A DNA stretch of 64,000 bases from Planctomycetota bacterium (GTDB lineage Bacteria; Planctomycetota; MHYJ01; JACQXL01): contig JACRIK010000026.1 of NCBI GenBank assembly GCA_016235865.1, positions 124,001 to 188,000 on the forward strand. Direction: 5' to 3'. The position numbers and the translations under genes are program-made. The notes below the pieces were generated by a model. It was given only the letters and a program-made list of their open reading frames with translations, did not search any database and was not told the DNA's origin. Shown here one piece after another: positions 26,098 to 46,579 of this stretch; positions within the stretch are counted from its first letter, which is position 1; every line of letters starts with the position of its first letter.

Positions 26098-28740
26098 TTA
26101 TCTTAATTCCCGTTCCAGCTCATCCAGTTCGATAATCTTGGCCCGGACGATAATAAATTGGTGGCGTTTTTCCTCCACCTTGATTTTACGCTTAAAGAAG
26201 GCGGATAGAATCGGGATTTTATCCAGCAGGGGTGTGGAAGCGGTGATATCCTGCTGAAAGACCGTTTCAAACCCGCCTAAGACCAGGGCGCCGCTGTCCG
26301 GTACCTCGGCGCTGGTCCGGCAACGCTGTAAACTTAACCAGGGCTTTTCGATCGTAATTTGCGTTCTTATTGTTCCTGCTTCATATTCTAATGTGGATTC
26401 CCTGCTGTCGACTAGCTCTAACAAGGTCGGGAATATATTCAGTGTGATAAACTTGCGGTCATAACTCATCACCGGCTTGACATCGAGCACCACGCCGGTG
26501 GAATAGGTATTTATCACCGGCTCATAGGCTACGGCGCCGGCCTGGATGTCTCCATCCTGGATATACTGGCGCTGTTTCAGGAATGACACGTTGACCCGTT
26601 GGCCGTTAAGGGCCGTGATTCTGGGCGAATCCAGGATGATTCCTTGGCCGGTTTTTTCCAGCGCCGTCATGAGCATATTGATGCGCGGCGAGCCCAAGAC
26701 GGCAAATTGCAGCCCCAGACCGCCGATGGCCGATGCCGGCAGGGCGTTTTCCACCTGGTTATTCTGGTCCCGGAATGTGTAGGCGGTCCTGAATCTGGTA
26801 TCCCGGGTGCCGCCCAGCAGTAACCCGGCGGTGGGATTGGCCTGTCCGGGTATATCCGGCGCATTAGGTATGGATTCACGGGGTATATTTCTTAGCTCCA
26901 CGCCTAAACTCTCCAGGATATTATCGCTGGTGTTCAGAAAGGTGGCTTCTACCGAAATCATCGCGCTTCGGAATGACCTGATGATTTGCAGGAATTCCGT
27001 TATTTCATCCTGGACCGAGGCGGTATGCACCACCATCAGTTTATTGCTTTCTCCTATCCGGCGTATGATTACGCCCGGGGTATTGCCCTCCCAGGTGCTT
27101 TGTTCCCGGCGGTCTTTGCCGGTGTTCTTTTTGATTAAATCCATCAGTTCATCGGTGGTTATCTTGGCCACCGCGGGCAGGTCTGTCTGCGGCATCTGCC
27201 AGCCCGGAGCTCCGCCCGGCGTCAGCGGTAACTCGATAGTCGGACCGGGAAATTCCGGTATGTCCCTGACCAGGTCGTCCACATTGTGCATCCGCCATTC
27301 TAAATCTTCTTCTAATGCCGTTGACTTGGTTATTTTCACGCTCTTAAAATCCTTATCAAACCCATATGCCAGGCCATATTGCTCCAGCAGGCTCTTTAAC
27401 CCGATATCCAGGGGCAGTCCGGTTAAGGACAGCGTCTTTTTCTCGTTCGGAATCCCTTCCTGTTTGACGTCAGCGGCGTAGATAATGGGTATTTTATACT
27501 GCTGCTGGATGTAATCCGTCACGTTGTATAGGGTGTCATTGCCTTCCAGCTTGAAATCGTGCCTGATGGTCTTGAGTTTCCGCTTTACCTCGACGATATC
27601 CTGGTCGTCTTCTAACCGGCTGGTAACTATTCCGGGCGGCTTCCGCCGGCTGGCTGTCTTCCAAACCCCAGGGTCGTAGCGCACGATTCTATCATCCGCA
27701 TAGGATATTTTCGTTTCCTTGAATTCGTCATACATCGCCTTAAACCGTTCCGAGCGCAGTTTGATGTATTTTTCCGATACCTCATAGTGCCGGGCTCGGA
27801 TGGCCTCTTTTCTTAATTCATCGGCGGTCTTGAAACTGGGCGCTGATTCCAGTATGGTCTGGGCCAGCCGCTCCACCTCTTCAAACCGCCGCTCCTCAAA
27901 AAGAATCAACGCCTGCTTAAAGAGCGACTTGATTCTCTCGTTATACTCCTGTTGGCGCTTTAATTCTTCTTCCTGGGACAGCTGGGCGGCCGCATCACGC
28001 ATCTGCCGGTTGTTTTCTTTTTCCTGATCGGCTCTCAAATCCTGTATGGCCTCTAACCGCGCCTGGGCCTTGCCCAGGTACTCATTCAGCCCGATATCAT
28101 ATGGCAGCCATTTCAGGGTATTTATCACCTGTTCAAATTCCGACTCGGCCTGGCTGTATTTCCTTTCGGCCGCCAGCTTCTCGCCCTGCAGAAAATGGTT
28201 CCGGACCACCACCTCGGTCTCCTGTAGTTTGACCGACAGTTGGTTCTGCAGGAATTCCTTTATCACCTTGATTTCATCCGGCCGGGTGACCAGGATCATC
28301 TGTATCTCAATCTGGAGCTTCTTGGCCTCCGGATGTTGGGGATTGAGTTGGAGGGCTTTGGTCACCTCGTCGCCGGCCTGGACGTAATTAAACTCCTTGA
28401 ATAGTTTCAGTCCCGACTCGTAGTATTTCTGGGCCAGGAACTCATTCTCCTGCATCTTGACGCCCTTGGATTTCTCCAATTCGGACATAACGTCATCGGT
28501 GTCAACCACCTCGCCTTTGTCATTGCGAGCCCGTACGGGCGAAGCAATCTCCTTATCCCTCCGTACGGAGGGAGGCAGGGGGATTAGAGAGTCATTTTCC
28601 GGCGCCAAGTTCTCTGTAATACCGGGGGATGCAGGGGGTTGTAAGGGGGTTGCCTTTTTCGTCCCGGTCACCTGCGTCCCGGTGCACCGGATGCACAGCA
28701 GGGTAGCCAAAACGGCTAAGATGATGAATAATCTTCTCAT
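26098..28740 (-). CDS. Secretin (GspD/PilQ-type) with TPR-like N-terminal region
   Basis: The 880-residue protein is predicted to form an outer-membrane secretion pore. It has an N-terminal hydrophobic signal (MRRLFIILAVLATLLCIRC, possibly a lipobox Cys), then a low-complexity stretch (about residues 25-80) built from dispersed repeats. Helical repeat segments run to ~340. An N0/STN-like domain follows near 405-470 (NDTLYNVTDYIQQQYKIPII). The C-terminal secretin core ends with VPDSGALVLGGFE and LLDKIPILSAFF, diagnostic of the family. No assembly ATPase is nearby; the GspK-like gene at 39270-43277 may belong to the same system. The N-terminal coding region holds a CATTGCGAG-type repeat and two palindromes in frame. 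Confidence 0.88.
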   Translation of the reverse strand: MRRLFIILAVLATLLCIRCTGTQVTGTKKATPLQPPASPGITENLAPENDSLIPLPPSVRRDKEIASPVRARNDKGEVVDTDDVMSELEKSKGVKMQENEFLAQKYYESGLKLFKEFNYVQAGDEVTKALQLNPQHPEAKKLQIEIQMILVTRPDEIKVIKEFLQNQLSVKLQETEVVVRNHFLQGEKLAAERKYSQAESEFEQVINTLKWLPYDIGLNEYLGKAQARLEAIQDLRADQEKENNRQMRDAAAQLSQEEELKRQQEYNERIKSLFKQALILFEERRFEEVERLAQTILESAPSFKTADELRKEAIRARHYEVSEKYIKLRSERFKAMYDEFKETKISYADDRIVRYDPGVWKTASRRKPPGIVTSRLEDDQDIVEVKRKLKTIRHDFKLEGNDTLYNVTDYIQQQYKIPIIYAADVKQEGIPNEKKTLSLTGLPLDIGLKSLLEQYGLAYGFDKDFKSVKITKSTALEEDLEWRMHNVDDLVRDIPEFPGPTIELPLTPGGAPGWQMPQTDLPAVAKITTDELMDLIKKNTGKDRREQSTWEGNTPGVIIRRIGESNKLMVVHTASVQDEITEFLQIIRSFRSAMISVEATFLNTSDNILESLGVELRNIPRESIPNAPDIPGQANPTAGLLLGGTRDTRFRTAYTFRDQNNQVENALPASAIGGLGLQFAVLGSPRINMLMTALEKTGQGIILDSPRITALNGQRVNVSFLKQRQYIQDGDIQAGAVAYEPVINTYSTGVVLDVKPVMSYDRKFITLNIFPTLLELVDSRESTLEYEAGTIRTQITIEKPWLSLQRCRTSAEVPDSGALVLGGFETVFQQDITASTPLLDKIPILSAFFKRKIKVEEKRHQFIIVRAKIIELDELERELR
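28521..28573. repeat. Dispersed repeat and palindromes inside the secretin gene
   Basis: A CATTGCGAG...CGAAGCAATC element (28521-28552) has a central palindrome GCCCGTACGGGC (28529-28540), followed by the perfect 18-bp palindrome TCCCTCCGTACGGAGGGA (28556-28573). The same CATTGCGAG/CGAAGCAATC element is found as an inverted pair at 51238-51314. All of it is translated in frame. Confidence 0.65.
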
Positions 28741-39269: not shown

Positions 39270-42200
39270 TTACTGTTCATATCCCCAACTGATTATCTTG
39301 GGTGTGGTATAATAATAGAATGTGATATCGTCGAATATTATTGTATCGTTTGCTGGCTGATTAATCCTTGTATTTGGTTTGAATAAGAGCTCGTATCTTA
39401 TTCGGTTTTTACTCAGGGTTAATGGTCCGTTCTCAGCCGGCGCGGCGCCGCCTCCGTCAGTCGGGATGGCCAATGTCCGGTTGTTTAATAAATCAGTGGT
39501 TTCGTTTTTCAGTCCGACTTCAACCTTCCCGTCAGGCATAGAGCCATTATCGATTTTGGTTTTTGTATCATACACGGTCCAGTGGACCATAAAGATATTA
39601 ATCTGGTTCGGATTTTCTGCGCCAATGTTTTCGGTTTTGCCAAGGTCAATCTCACGCGAGATGAATTTGGCGTCGTCGCCGGTGTAATATCTGCCTAAGC
39701 TCCAGAGACCGTCAATATTGGGCGGTGGAGGTGGCGGCGGTGGCGGCGGAGGAGGCGGTGGCGGTGGAGGCGGCGGAGGTGGTGGAGGAGGCGGCGGAGG
39801 TGGAGGAGGCGGCGGTGGAGGAGGCGGTGGCGGTGGTGGCGGCGGCGGAGGCGGTGGAGGAGGAGGTGGCCAATCACCATCTCTTTTCCTGCGCGGACAA
39901 CCTGCCCAGATCACCTTTTCTTTGTTGATATAGGTTGTTTTGGTATTGTTTAAACTACAGAGTTTGACATTTTCGTCAACGATAAAGGTGTTGTTGTCAA
40001 CTGATTGCCTGTCAGGAAAGGAAGGCGCAGAACCATTTGAACCTCCAGATGGAGGCGGAATCATCCTTTCGTCTGATTTTTCACTATTACCTGAATCACC
40101 TTCCTGACTAACTGGTATTAACTCAAAAACCAGAACCTCGTCAATAGTTGCGTCAGGGGCTCCGTTCAATCGCAGGGCGCTCATAACCTCGCCTAATCTT
40201 AAATAATTGTCGATACTGTTGTATTTGCCGGTCAGAGCATTCTGCTGGTCCTGGAAGGTGCCTCTTTTCCACGCCTGACCATTGATATAGAGCACGTCAT
40301 TAGCCTCTTGCTTGGTTGTCGGCGGTATTACCGCTGGTGGTTTGGATTCATCCGGTGGTGTGGTCTCGCCAGTCGGTTCAGGCGGTTTAATGGTCGGTTC
40401 AGGCTGTTTTGTCCACTCGGGAATAACAGGTGGTACTTTGTTATGCACCAAGACACCATTAGCAAAGTAGTTATGAGTGTCACTCACTTCCAGGTTATAA
40501 ACCAGGGGGGATTCCGGTATAAATTCAATCCTGACAATTTCCATCAATCCACATTCAGTAAACAGGGCATGATTTACTTTCAATTCATCTGCTCTTTTAC
40601 AGATATCAGAAGCGATATATACGGGATGGTTACCTGTAATCTCTAACTGCGTTCCGTTTTTCAAGGAGATGCGATAATATCCTGATTTATTTTCGTGTTC
40701 GAACACCTCGGCAACTTTAACTAATTTAGTTTGAGATGTCTTTTCATCAAGACCGAATACTTCATATCCTACTTTAATATCCTCGATATTCACTAAAACA
40801 TTGTTCCTGGTTAATATCTTAGTTCCGGCAAGCAGGCAGCCACCCATACCCGGACAAGACGCTAAATCAACATCTTCCTTCTGATAACTGCCGCCATCCG
40901 CAAACACACATAATTTATTGCCGGAAAAGGCATATTTGAGTTGTTTGGTGTCATCTATCATCGCCATGACTTCCTGGACCCTTCTGACCCAGGTAATATT
41001 AATCCATTTGCCGGCCCGGAAGCTGGTGTTGCTCCAATCAGGAGGATTACTGATACCGCTGCAATTCGGATGATTGATATGATTAAGGCAGGGGGTTCCG
41101 GCGCCCTTAAACCCGATGGTATTGGATGTCCCGTATCCGCCGGCCAGGAAACTATTGTGATTCCATCCGTCTCCATCGTCCCGGTAAGACATTATATCGG
41201 CGCGGGGTATGCGGGCGATACTGTATATCCCAAACGGGATTCCGTACCTGCCGTATGTCTCATTACGAGCGGTTGTGTTCATCCAGGAGAAATAGGTCCT
41301 GATTTTGCCTGTTTCCTCCGGATAGAAGTGCGGTTTTACCCACATAGAAACCACGATTAGTTGGTCGTTGAAATCTCCCGGCCTTAGAAAGTAGGCCGGA
41401 ATTGCCTTGCTGTCCGAATATACGCCGTCCGGGTAAAGGCGTCCGGATAATTCATCTGAGGGAGGGATTAATCTGCCTGCGCCGGGAACAGGTTCGGTGC
41501 GGAACTGCTTTATTTCCTGCCCGGTATTGGCATCCAATCCGTTTGTGAAACTGGCCCGGAACCTGAGCGTGCCGCCGTTGATTGTCGGATTGGGTTGTTC
41601 GGTCGTGGCTAGGGCAATATAGCCGTCATAATCAGCGTTTGCGCCGGCGTCCTTATTATTCATTTCAGGCAGGACCTGAAGAGTTAAATCATTATGGGTC
41701 GGCTTGTTTGGATTGGTGTTTTCCGCAATGATATTATTTTTAATCGGTTTATCCTTGAGGTCGGCCAGGAATTGCGCTTCCGTGGTCTCGCGGTAGATAT
41801 CAAATAATTTGACCACGCTCTTGATTTCCGCCTGCGCCAGCACCTTGTTGGCATTGTTTAATATCCGGCCTAATGAGGTTATTTCATAATAGCCGGTCGG
41901 GTAGAAGGTGAATTCGGTAGTGTAGTAAGTTAAATCTGTTTTGTCCGACCTGAGCAACCGGTTGTAATCGGGATTGAAATCGTTCAGGTTGGTATTGGGG
42001 TTAAAATTAGCTTTAAGGATGTCGGCTTCTGTTTTGGTCAGGTTGATGCTGGCAGTCAACGAATCGCAGAAATCGTGGAATTGTTCCCAGTTCCTGAACG
42101 GCCCGGCGGTTTTTATCCGGTTGGCAATCTGTTCCGTGATCTTTACGGCGGTCTCGCGAGAGAACGCGGTGGTTTCTTTTAATTTAAAGGTGGCGCCGGA

Positions 42201-43277
42201 AAACTGCGGAAATTGGTGCAAGGCATAATTTTGGCTGGTGCGGCCCGCGGCGTTTGCCCATTCACTGTCGGTGACATAGTTATCAGCGGGAGAATTGTCG
42301 CTGTCAAGCGCCGCCAGATAAAAGCCCTTAAGGTCCCTGATGAGCGCGATGAGAAGTTGTTTCGGGGCGGTATTGATATTGACCGGCGCCCGGCCGACTA
42401 TCTTGTCATTCTTCTTGGGGAATTTCACCGGTTCGGCAATGCGCATTTCGCTCCAGGATTCAATGTCGCTGTTTAGGGTGGGCGGTTTTCCGTTTCTGCC
42501 CAGACGTCCGGTTAGCGGAGTCGGGCTGACTACCGTGGTATCGCACCAGGCGTAAAAGGTAATATAGGGCGCTAATCTCCGGGCGTCAGTATCGCTCAGT
42601 TTTATTCTTGATTTGAGGTCATCTATGGAGGTATATGGCCCGTTTTTAGTCTTTTCGTCAAATATCTTGGCGCCAGGTTCCCGGCCCAGGTCGATTTCTT
42701 CGGCCAGATTCTCCAGTATTTGTTTGAGATGCGAGTGGTCTTCCATATTGACATAGAGCCGGGCGGACAGGTCGTCTATCTTAAGCGCGAAATAGTCGCC
42801 GTCCTTATTCTTTTGAGACGGCACCCGGCCGGATACGCCGACCTTGTATGGCTTGAGGCCCTTTTTTATTTCCAGTAAATCTTTTGCATTTATATCTCCG
42901 TCATTATTTGCATCCTTCATCAATGAAGGACGCACGGCGCGACTCAGAGGGCAGTCAAAGGTCTGGAGAATGCCGTCGCCATCCTGGTCTTCTTCGGCGG
43001 TGGCCGGATTATCGCCGTCGTTTGGGTCAAGGTCTTCGCCGTAATATTTTAGCCCGTCAATCCTGGCCGGGGTGAGATACGTTTTGGCATTGGAGATGGC
43101 ATAGTGAATGCCGCTCTGGGCCACTAATTTGGCCTGGACATAATCCACGTGGCTCTTTGAGGTGGCACGTTCCATCGTGGTCAGCATTGAAAATAGTATG
43201 CCCAGGATCACCAGCAGGGTCAGGATGCCCAGTATGACAATCAGGACCACCCCGGATTTGGTGCTTTTTGAGCTCAT
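39270..43277 (-). CDS. GspK-like minor pseudopilin with EF-hand loops, LamG-like domain, Hint domain and Pro50 tract
   Basis: The 1335-residue protein starts with a type IV pilin/GspK N-terminus (SGVVLIVILGILTLLVILGILFS). Two EF-hand/dockerin-like calcium loops follow (DQDGDGILQTFD and DANNDGDINAKD, near residues 95 and 130), then the GspK helix-hairpin core. A LamG-like sandwich starts at ~600 (WINITWVRRVQEVMAMIDD). A Hint domain occupies Cys814-Asn946 and interrupts the LamG-like part, which appears to resume after a Pro-rich linker at VLYINGQAWKRG. Residues 1137-1186 are 50 consecutive prolines. The start has GAAGGAAA upstream. It may cap a pseudopilus of a type II-like secretion system with the secretin at 26098, or be a surface protein using the pilin export route. 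Confidence 0.8.
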   Translation of the reverse strand: MSSKSTKSGVVLIVILGILTLLVILGILFSMLTTMERATSKSHVDYVQAKLVAQSGIHYAISNAKTYLTPARIDGLKYYGEDLDPNDGDNPATAEEDQDGDGILQTFDCPLSRAVRPSLMKDANNDGDINAKDLLEIKKGLKPYKVGVSGRVPSQKNKDGDYFALKIDDLSARLYVNMEDHSHLKQILENLAEEIDLGREPGAKIFDEKTKNGPYTSIDDLKSRIKLSDTDARRLAPYITFYAWCDTTVVSPTPLTGRLGRNGKPPTLNSDIESWSEMRIAEPVKFPKKNDKIVGRAPVNINTAPKQLLIALIRDLKGFYLAALDSDNSPADNYVTDSEWANAAGRTSQNYALHQFPQFSGATFKLKETTAFSRETAVKITEQIANRIKTAGPFRNWEQFHDFCDSLTASINLTKTEADILKANFNPNTNLNDFNPDYNRLLRSDKTDLTYYTTEFTFYPTGYYEITSLGRILNNANKVLAQAEIKSVVKLFDIYRETTEAQFLADLKDKPIKNNIIAENTNPNKPTHNDLTLQVLPEMNNKDAGANADYDGYIALATTEQPNPTINGGTLRFRASFTNGLDANTGQEIKQFRTEPVPGAGRLIPPSDELSGRLYPDGVYSDSKAIPAYFLRPGDFNDQLIVVSMWVKPHFYPEETGKIRTYFSWMNTTARNETYGRYGIPFGIYSIARIPRADIMSYRDDGDGWNHNSFLAGGYGTSNTIGFKGAGTPCLNHINHPNCSGISNPPDWSNTSFRAGKWINITWVRRVQEVMAMIDDTKQLKYAFSGNKLCVFADGGSYQKEDVDLASCPGMGGCLLAGTKILTRNNVLVNIEDIKVGYEVFGLDEKTSQTKLVKVAEVFEHENKSGYYRISLKNGTQLEITGNHPVYIASDICKRADELKVNHALFTECGLMEIVRIEFIPESPLVYNLEVSDTHNYFANGVLVHNKVPPVIPEWTKQPEPTIKPPEPTGETTPPDESKPPAVIPPTTKQEANDVLYINGQAWKRGTFQDQQNALTGKYNSIDNYLRLGEVMSALRLNGAPDATIDEVLVFELIPVSQEGDSGNSEKSDERMIPPPSGGSNGSAPSFPDRQSVDNNTFIVDENVKLCSLNNTKTTYINKEKVIWAGCPRRKRDGDWPPPPPPPPPPPPPPPPPPPPPPPPPPPPPPPPPPPPPPPPPPPPPPPPPPNIDGLWSLGRYYTGDDAKFISREIDLGKTENIGAENPNQINIFMVHWTVYDTKTKIDNGSMPDGKVEVGLKNETTDLLNNRTLAIPTDGGGAAPAENGPLTLSKNRIRYELLFKPNTRINQPANDTIIFDDITFYYYTTPKIISWGYEQ
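39720..39869 (-). repeat. 50 consecutive proline codons
   Basis: 150 bp of uninterrupted CCN codons (NGG on the plus strand) encode 50 prolines in the GspK-like protein. The third positions are mixed (CCG, CCA, CCT and one CCC), so the tract is not a simple slipped trinucleotide. Translation would depend strongly on EF-P. Confidence 0.95.
40440..40838 (-). other. Hint (intein-like) domain, 133 aa, within the GspK-like gene
   Basis: The domain begins with Cys814 (GCLLAGTKIL), has IEDIKVGYEVFGLDE, the block B TGNHPVY with the TxxH motif, and ends with THNYFANGVLVHN at Asn946. Residue +1 is Lys, not Cys/Ser/Thr, so the splicing nucleophile on the C-terminal side is missing. This is the pattern of bacterial intein-like (A-type BIL) or polymorphic-toxin Hint domains; no endonuclease is inserted. 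Confidence 0.9.
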
Positions 43278-46051: not shown

Positions 46052-46579
46052 ATGACACATAAGGAGTTCATTAACAAGGTGACCAATTCACATAAGGATT
46101 TTATATCAGAGTTTATTAATATTCTAAAGTTTAACCGGATGCCTTTTTGTGTTATCGGCGGATTAGCGGTTAATGCTTATGTGGAACCGGTGGTGAGTTT
46201 GGATTTAGACGTGGTGGTCGTGGTCCAGGGGATAAATAATCTGATTAAACTCCTCAGGAAAAGATATAAGGTTTCCCGATACCCGCATAGTATTAATGTG
46301 GCTTATTCCCAATCTGACTTACGGATTCAAATCCAGATTGACCCGAGATATCAGTCGTTCATAGAAAAGGCCAGGGTGAAGAATGTTCTGGGTTATCGCT
46401 TGCCTGTAGCGCTGATAGGGGATGTGTTTCAGGGGAAAATCTGGGCGGCTCAGGACCCGAAGCGCCGGCCCAGCAAACGGCAAAAGGATTTATCAGACAT
46501 CCAGAGAATGCTGGAAGTAAAGCCAGCCCTGGCTAAATTGTTACCTCAATCACTCAAGAACCGGTTAATCACGAAATAA
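46052..46579 (+). CDS. Nucleotidyltransferase (AbiEii/MNT-like)
   Basis: The 175-residue protein carries the minimal nucleotidyltransferase signature: Gly36-Gly37 in VIGGLAVNAY and the catalytic Asp51/Asp53 in LDLDVVV. The C-terminal part is helical and basic (KRRPSKRQKDLSDIQRM), typical of AbiEii or related toxins that modify tRNA or nucleotides. No antitoxin (AbiEi or other small partner) is seen upstream or downstream, so it is solitary here. It could be a domesticated toxin or an unrelated nucleotidyltransferase. It is isolated, with repeat array C after it. Confidence 0.75.
   Translation: MTHKEFINKVTNSHKDFISEFINILKFNRMPFCVIGGLAVNAYVEPVVSLDLDVVVVVQGINNLIKLLRKRYKVSRYPHSINVAYSQSDLRIQIQIDPRYQSFIEKARVKNVLGYRLPVALIGDVFQGKIWAAQDPKRRPSKRQKDLSDIQRMLEVKPALAKLLPQSLKNRLITK

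Follow-up and report, generated by a model that had tools for sequence, protein, structure and literature searches.

We describe here a Hint domain that interrupts a likely LamG-like domain of a GspK-like protein in a bacterium of the Planctomycetota. The gene lies within a stretch of 64,000 nucleotides, referred to below as the window, and the parts of its product are listed in Table 1. The domain is a further member of the bacterial intein-like (BIL) domains, and both its host protein and its insertion point are unusual for such a domain. Intein-like domains were already known from bacterial secreted proteins; a literature search pairing 'intein-like' with 'pseudopilin' found no paper in the collection searched. 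Judged from its sequence and modelled fold, the domain probably works as an A-type BIL in a loop of the LamG-like domain, where it would process its host into a mixture of cleavage and excision products while the two LamG-like halves are held together.

Table 1. The host reading frame and its parts, in window coordinates.
Feature	Residues	Coordinates	Strand	Basis or remarks
Host ORF, GspK-like pseudopilin with LamG-like C-terminal part	1335 aa	39270..43277	minus	ORF list and translation, NCBIfam/Pfam, relatives
Type IV pilin-like N-terminal segment	1-60	43098..43277	minus	PilX_N 0.011 and T2SS_GspK N-terminus 6e-5, both below cut-off; kept in relatives
Helix-hairpin-helix (HHH) region	197-240	42558..42689	minus	HHH_3 E 0.0011, below cut-off
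LamG-like domain, N-terminal half	556-769	40971..41612	minus	Profile from Hint-free relatives, model 1-220, 196 bits
Lineage-specific loop module preceding Hint, ending ...SCPGMGG	770-813	40839..40970	minus	Own-genome paralog has the module, relatives lack it
Hint / A-type BIL domain	C814-N946, 133 aa	40440..40838	minus	Pfam, NCBIfam, phmmer, catalytic residues, AlphaFold2 fold
+1 residue	Lys947	40437..40439	minus	Sequence
Pro-rich linker 3' of Hint	947-983	40329..40439	minus	Sequence and alignment with paralog
LamG-like domain, C-terminal half	984-1052	40122..40328	minus	Profile from Hint-free relatives, model 218-286, 55 bits
Second lineage-specific insertion	1053-1186	39720..40121	minus	Alignment; includes 50-proline run, 1137-1186 (39720-39869)
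Conserved C-terminal segment	1187-1335	39273..39719	minus	Alignment with relatives

An earlier note on this DNA, made from its letters, had placed a Hint domain at these coordinates, and the boundaries prove exact, with K947 following directly. The HMM search that it proposed as a check returned Pfam Intein_splicing (E 4.3e-16) and PT-HINT (E 8.3e-12) together with NCBIfam intein_Nterm and intein_Cterm, all over cut-off, and phmmer matched the same segment to solved inteins and to the Clostridium thermocellum BIL 2lwy (E 2e-8). An AlphaFold2 model built with Hint relatives has a mean pLDDT of 87.7; its best fold matches are Tetrahymena BIL2, DnaB inteins, the hedgehog Hint and the C. thermocellum BIL, with VIA-align Z scores of 21.9 to BIL2 (6y75) and 20.5 to 2lwy. 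The Cys at the start, TxxH and HN at the end that had been read from the sequence are present in an alignment with 25 non-redundant relatives as C814, T881xxH884 and H945-N946; in Hint numbering, C1, T68xxH71, H122, H132 and N133 are all kept. The host region is variable, its loop differing in length and content among relatives, and Lys947 stands at the +1 position, where A-type BILs are without Cys, Ser or Thr. The A-type character that the note had suggested is borne out by the family matches, the catalytic residues and the fold match to BILs.

The insertion site could be located with a profile of the LamG-like part built from uninterrupted (Hint-free) relatives of the host. This profile matches the host in two abutting halves, one on each side of the Hint, with no model positions lost across the split, in agreement with the earlier reading that a single LamG-like fold is interrupted. 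Because the two profile halves flank the insert, the insertion is placed in one strand-to-strand loop, and the break has the stretch FRAGKW.....W on one side and LYINGQ on the other. The label 'LamG-like' is likely rather than certain, since Laminin_G_3 gave a weak, sub-threshold match in one of two uninterrupted relatives (19.9 versus 27.6 bits, E 0.00087) and no match in the other. When AlphaFold was applied to the whole stretch, with few sequences used, only the Hint was confident and the LamG part was of low confidence.

A search with residues 1-813 found host relatives, at any similarity, in 39 of 59 genomes, and the full alignment comprises the host, its paralog and five proteins from four related genomes. 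The paralog lies on the same contig (G000:C26:34706–37165), is 63% identical over residues 3-812, and has no Hint: at the site it reads PGRGQ/PMPPQTPP, versus PGMGG/Hint/KVPPVIPEW in the host, so that a long Pro-rich linker stands where the host has the Hint and a shorter one. The five other homologs have neither Hint nor Pro-rich linker at the site. Near the paralog, and likewise near the homologs in G001, G005 and G006, an ORF of some 400 codons encodes a protein that looks secreted. No such ORF lies near the host gene, which looks like a dispersed duplicate.

Both lineage-specific expansions are common to host and paralog. Each opens with a short module ending A/S/G-C-P that is followed by low-complexity sequence (40839-40970 and 39870-40121; paralog L035, G000:C26:31500-38500), and the module before the Hint and that before the 50-proline run may be distant repeats. 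As an internal repeat the pair is suggestive only, its score being reached by 2-3 of 2000 shuffles with the paralog's module and by 22-82 of 2000 with the host's own. The 50 consecutive Pro codons are of mixed kinds, and the paralog's linker there is Pro-rich but mixed. A run of 50 prolines should stall ribosomes without EF-P.

The Hint was probably acquired separately from its host, because no second Hint was found in the genome and its composition is AT-rich. At 37.8%, its GC content is lower than in any of the 335 stretches of the window's genes with which it was compared (mean 51.5%); its GC3 is low but not unique, six of the 335 being as low. The nearest Hint sequences are at most 38% identical, and the tree leaves their relationship to it unsettled; it does not group the domain with its own phylum, with little support. 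Some Hint match is present in 24 of 392 genomes of the phylum, the host genome included, and those matches that were read sit in other kinds of protein, e.g., RHS-type.

Two other readings were considered. A multi-copy cassette within the genome was rejected, only a single Hint having been found there. Vertical inheritance in the family is opposed by the distribution, as no Hint was found in any of the order's eight other genomes, and only a distant one in 1 of 22 other genomes of the class.

In the mechanism that we propose, C814 would attack the Gly813-Cys814 bond in an N-S acyl shift aided by T881 and H884, and Asn946, aided by H945 and H935, would cyclise and free Lys947. Since Lys947 is not the usual nucleophile, a mixture of products would be expected: C-terminal cleavage, hydrolysis of the N-terminal thioester and, in part, precise excision, the last through attack of the freed alpha-amine of Lys947 on the Gly813 thioester. 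Excision would leave a Gly/Pro linker resembling that of the paralog. The two LamG halves, on neighbouring strands, would probably remain associated in every one of these products, so that the protein could tolerate the cut. BILs are described as sitting in variable regions, lacking a +1 nucleophile, and cleaving or splicing, with cleavage as the main outcome and splicing in some A-type cases (PMC5874633, PMC7664689, PMC7765530); reviews differ as to whether A-type BILs cannot ligate (PMC7765530) or some splice (PMC5874633). By analogy with such domains, the release or joining of surface-protein parts, which the earlier note had envisaged, is the standard expectation for a BIL.

The +1 Lys, which the note had remarked on, appears to be a recurring feature of such BILs and not an oddity, because it is shared by about 9 of the 32 non-redundant homologs whose +1 residue could be read, in a tally slightly biased by a query that ended in Lys. 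Among the relatives in which Lys follows the HN end are L048, L049, L051, L059, L078, L084, L112 and L195, the first three of which form a supported clade (98/85). Several viral relatives carry a Gly-rich stretch right before Cys1, comparable to PGMGG of the host. An unusual Hint host is L051 (G042), which resembles a sigma factor, has a membrane segment and carries its Hint at the C-terminus, with Lys directly after it. Viral contigs (L076-L082) encode a protein of 766-770 aa with three tandem Hint-like domains, the last ending in LVS, not HN.

Several near-invariant non-catalytic Hint positions are altered: D25 (Asp in 92% of homologs) is Tyr, G79-W80 is Ile-Cys and G89-D90 is Asn-His. These changes may mean weakened activity; with its catalytic residues retained and structural ones altered, the domain could be active though diverged, or could be at an early stage of decay. 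If it were an inert or decaying passenger, it would fold as a Hint without efficient processing, its host surviving through the tolerant loop; the substitutions would suit such a passenger, as would the fact that the host is a second, dispersed copy and that the same genome encodes a paralog without a Hint at another place. With every catalytic residue kept, the ORF intact and the predicted fold confident, we regard decay as unlikely.

In a transfer of the hedgehog or BUBL kind, the thioester at Gly813 would be passed on to an external nucleophile or to the side chain of a lysine, joining the N-terminal part to another molecule. Gly-Gly precedes Cys1, +1 Lys recurs in relatives, some relatives (L083/L084, L048) stop directly behind HN-K, at a point where C-cleavage would release next to nothing, and the top fold match, Tetrahymena BIL2, forms a lysine isopeptide (PMC8616854); however, no acceptor or sterol-recognition-like part was identified, and Asn946 and H945 are retained though unneeded for plain thioester transfer, which makes this outcome distinctly improbable. 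The isopeptide formed by BIL2 also keeps open, at a very slim chance, a reading in which the side-chain amine of the +1 Lys itself acts, giving a pseudopilin-like protein that is branched or joined by an isopeptide, or attaching it to a partner, as BIL2 does with ubiquitin-like domains. Least credible is a true splicing intein, always cleanly excised and without a role: the intein end models match over cut-off and excision would yield a paralog-like linker, but a canonical class 1 intein would have Cys, Ser or Thr at +1 and a conserved insertion site such as an active site, whereas here there are Lys947 and a variable loop, and 133 aa leave no room for an endonuclease.

As for the host, it is GspK-like through its N-terminus and HHH region and is not a proven T2SS component. 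The name 'GspK-like' given in the note holds for the N-terminus, where 53 residues match T2SS_GspK (NF037980) and Pfam gives weak HHH and PilX_N matches, but not for the strict, curated whole-protein model, whose cut-off of 130 bits is not reached by a score of 22.7. The genome has two prepilin-peptidase matches over cut-off, several T2SS/T4P-type ATPases and six secretins, and with these a pilin-like protein could be processed and assembled. No T2SS operon adjoins the host gene. One secretin lies in the window (26098-28740, minus strand); it has a TPR-like N-terminal region, and its neighbours are LepA and a signal peptidase, not a T2SS operon. Elsewhere in the window, 46052-46579 (plus strand) gives a weak, sub-threshold match to an AbiEii-like nucleotidyltransferase.

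The host and its paralog form a natural pair in one genome, much the same protein once with a BIL in this loop and once without, so that the use of A-type BILs to their hosts becomes directly testable. With a pilus-tip-like protein among them, the known hosts of BILs would extend past toxins and adhesins.

Finally, the protein and its domain can be set beside known systems. The host shares a pilin-like N-terminus and HHH region with the T2SS minor pseudopilin GspK (NF037980) and with Verru_Chthon cassette protein A (TIGR02600), but falls below the curated cut-off of each and has an extra LamG-like part and long linkers. The domain matches the PT-HINT of polymorphic toxins (PF07591) over the Pfam cut-off, yet Pfam recognises no toxin domain or RHS stalk in the host protein. 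Tetrahymena BUBL1 BIL2 is the closest fold match at 25% identity, but the host here is without ubiquitin-like domains. With the A-type BILs of C. thermocellum (2lwy) and of Neisseria MafB the domain described here shares a Hint of 133 aa without endonuclease, Cys1, TxxH, an HN end, a non-nucleophilic +1 residue and a place in a variable region of a surface or secreted-type protein; unlike them, it resides in a GspK-like host, in a loop inside one domain rather than at the border with a variable C-terminal end.
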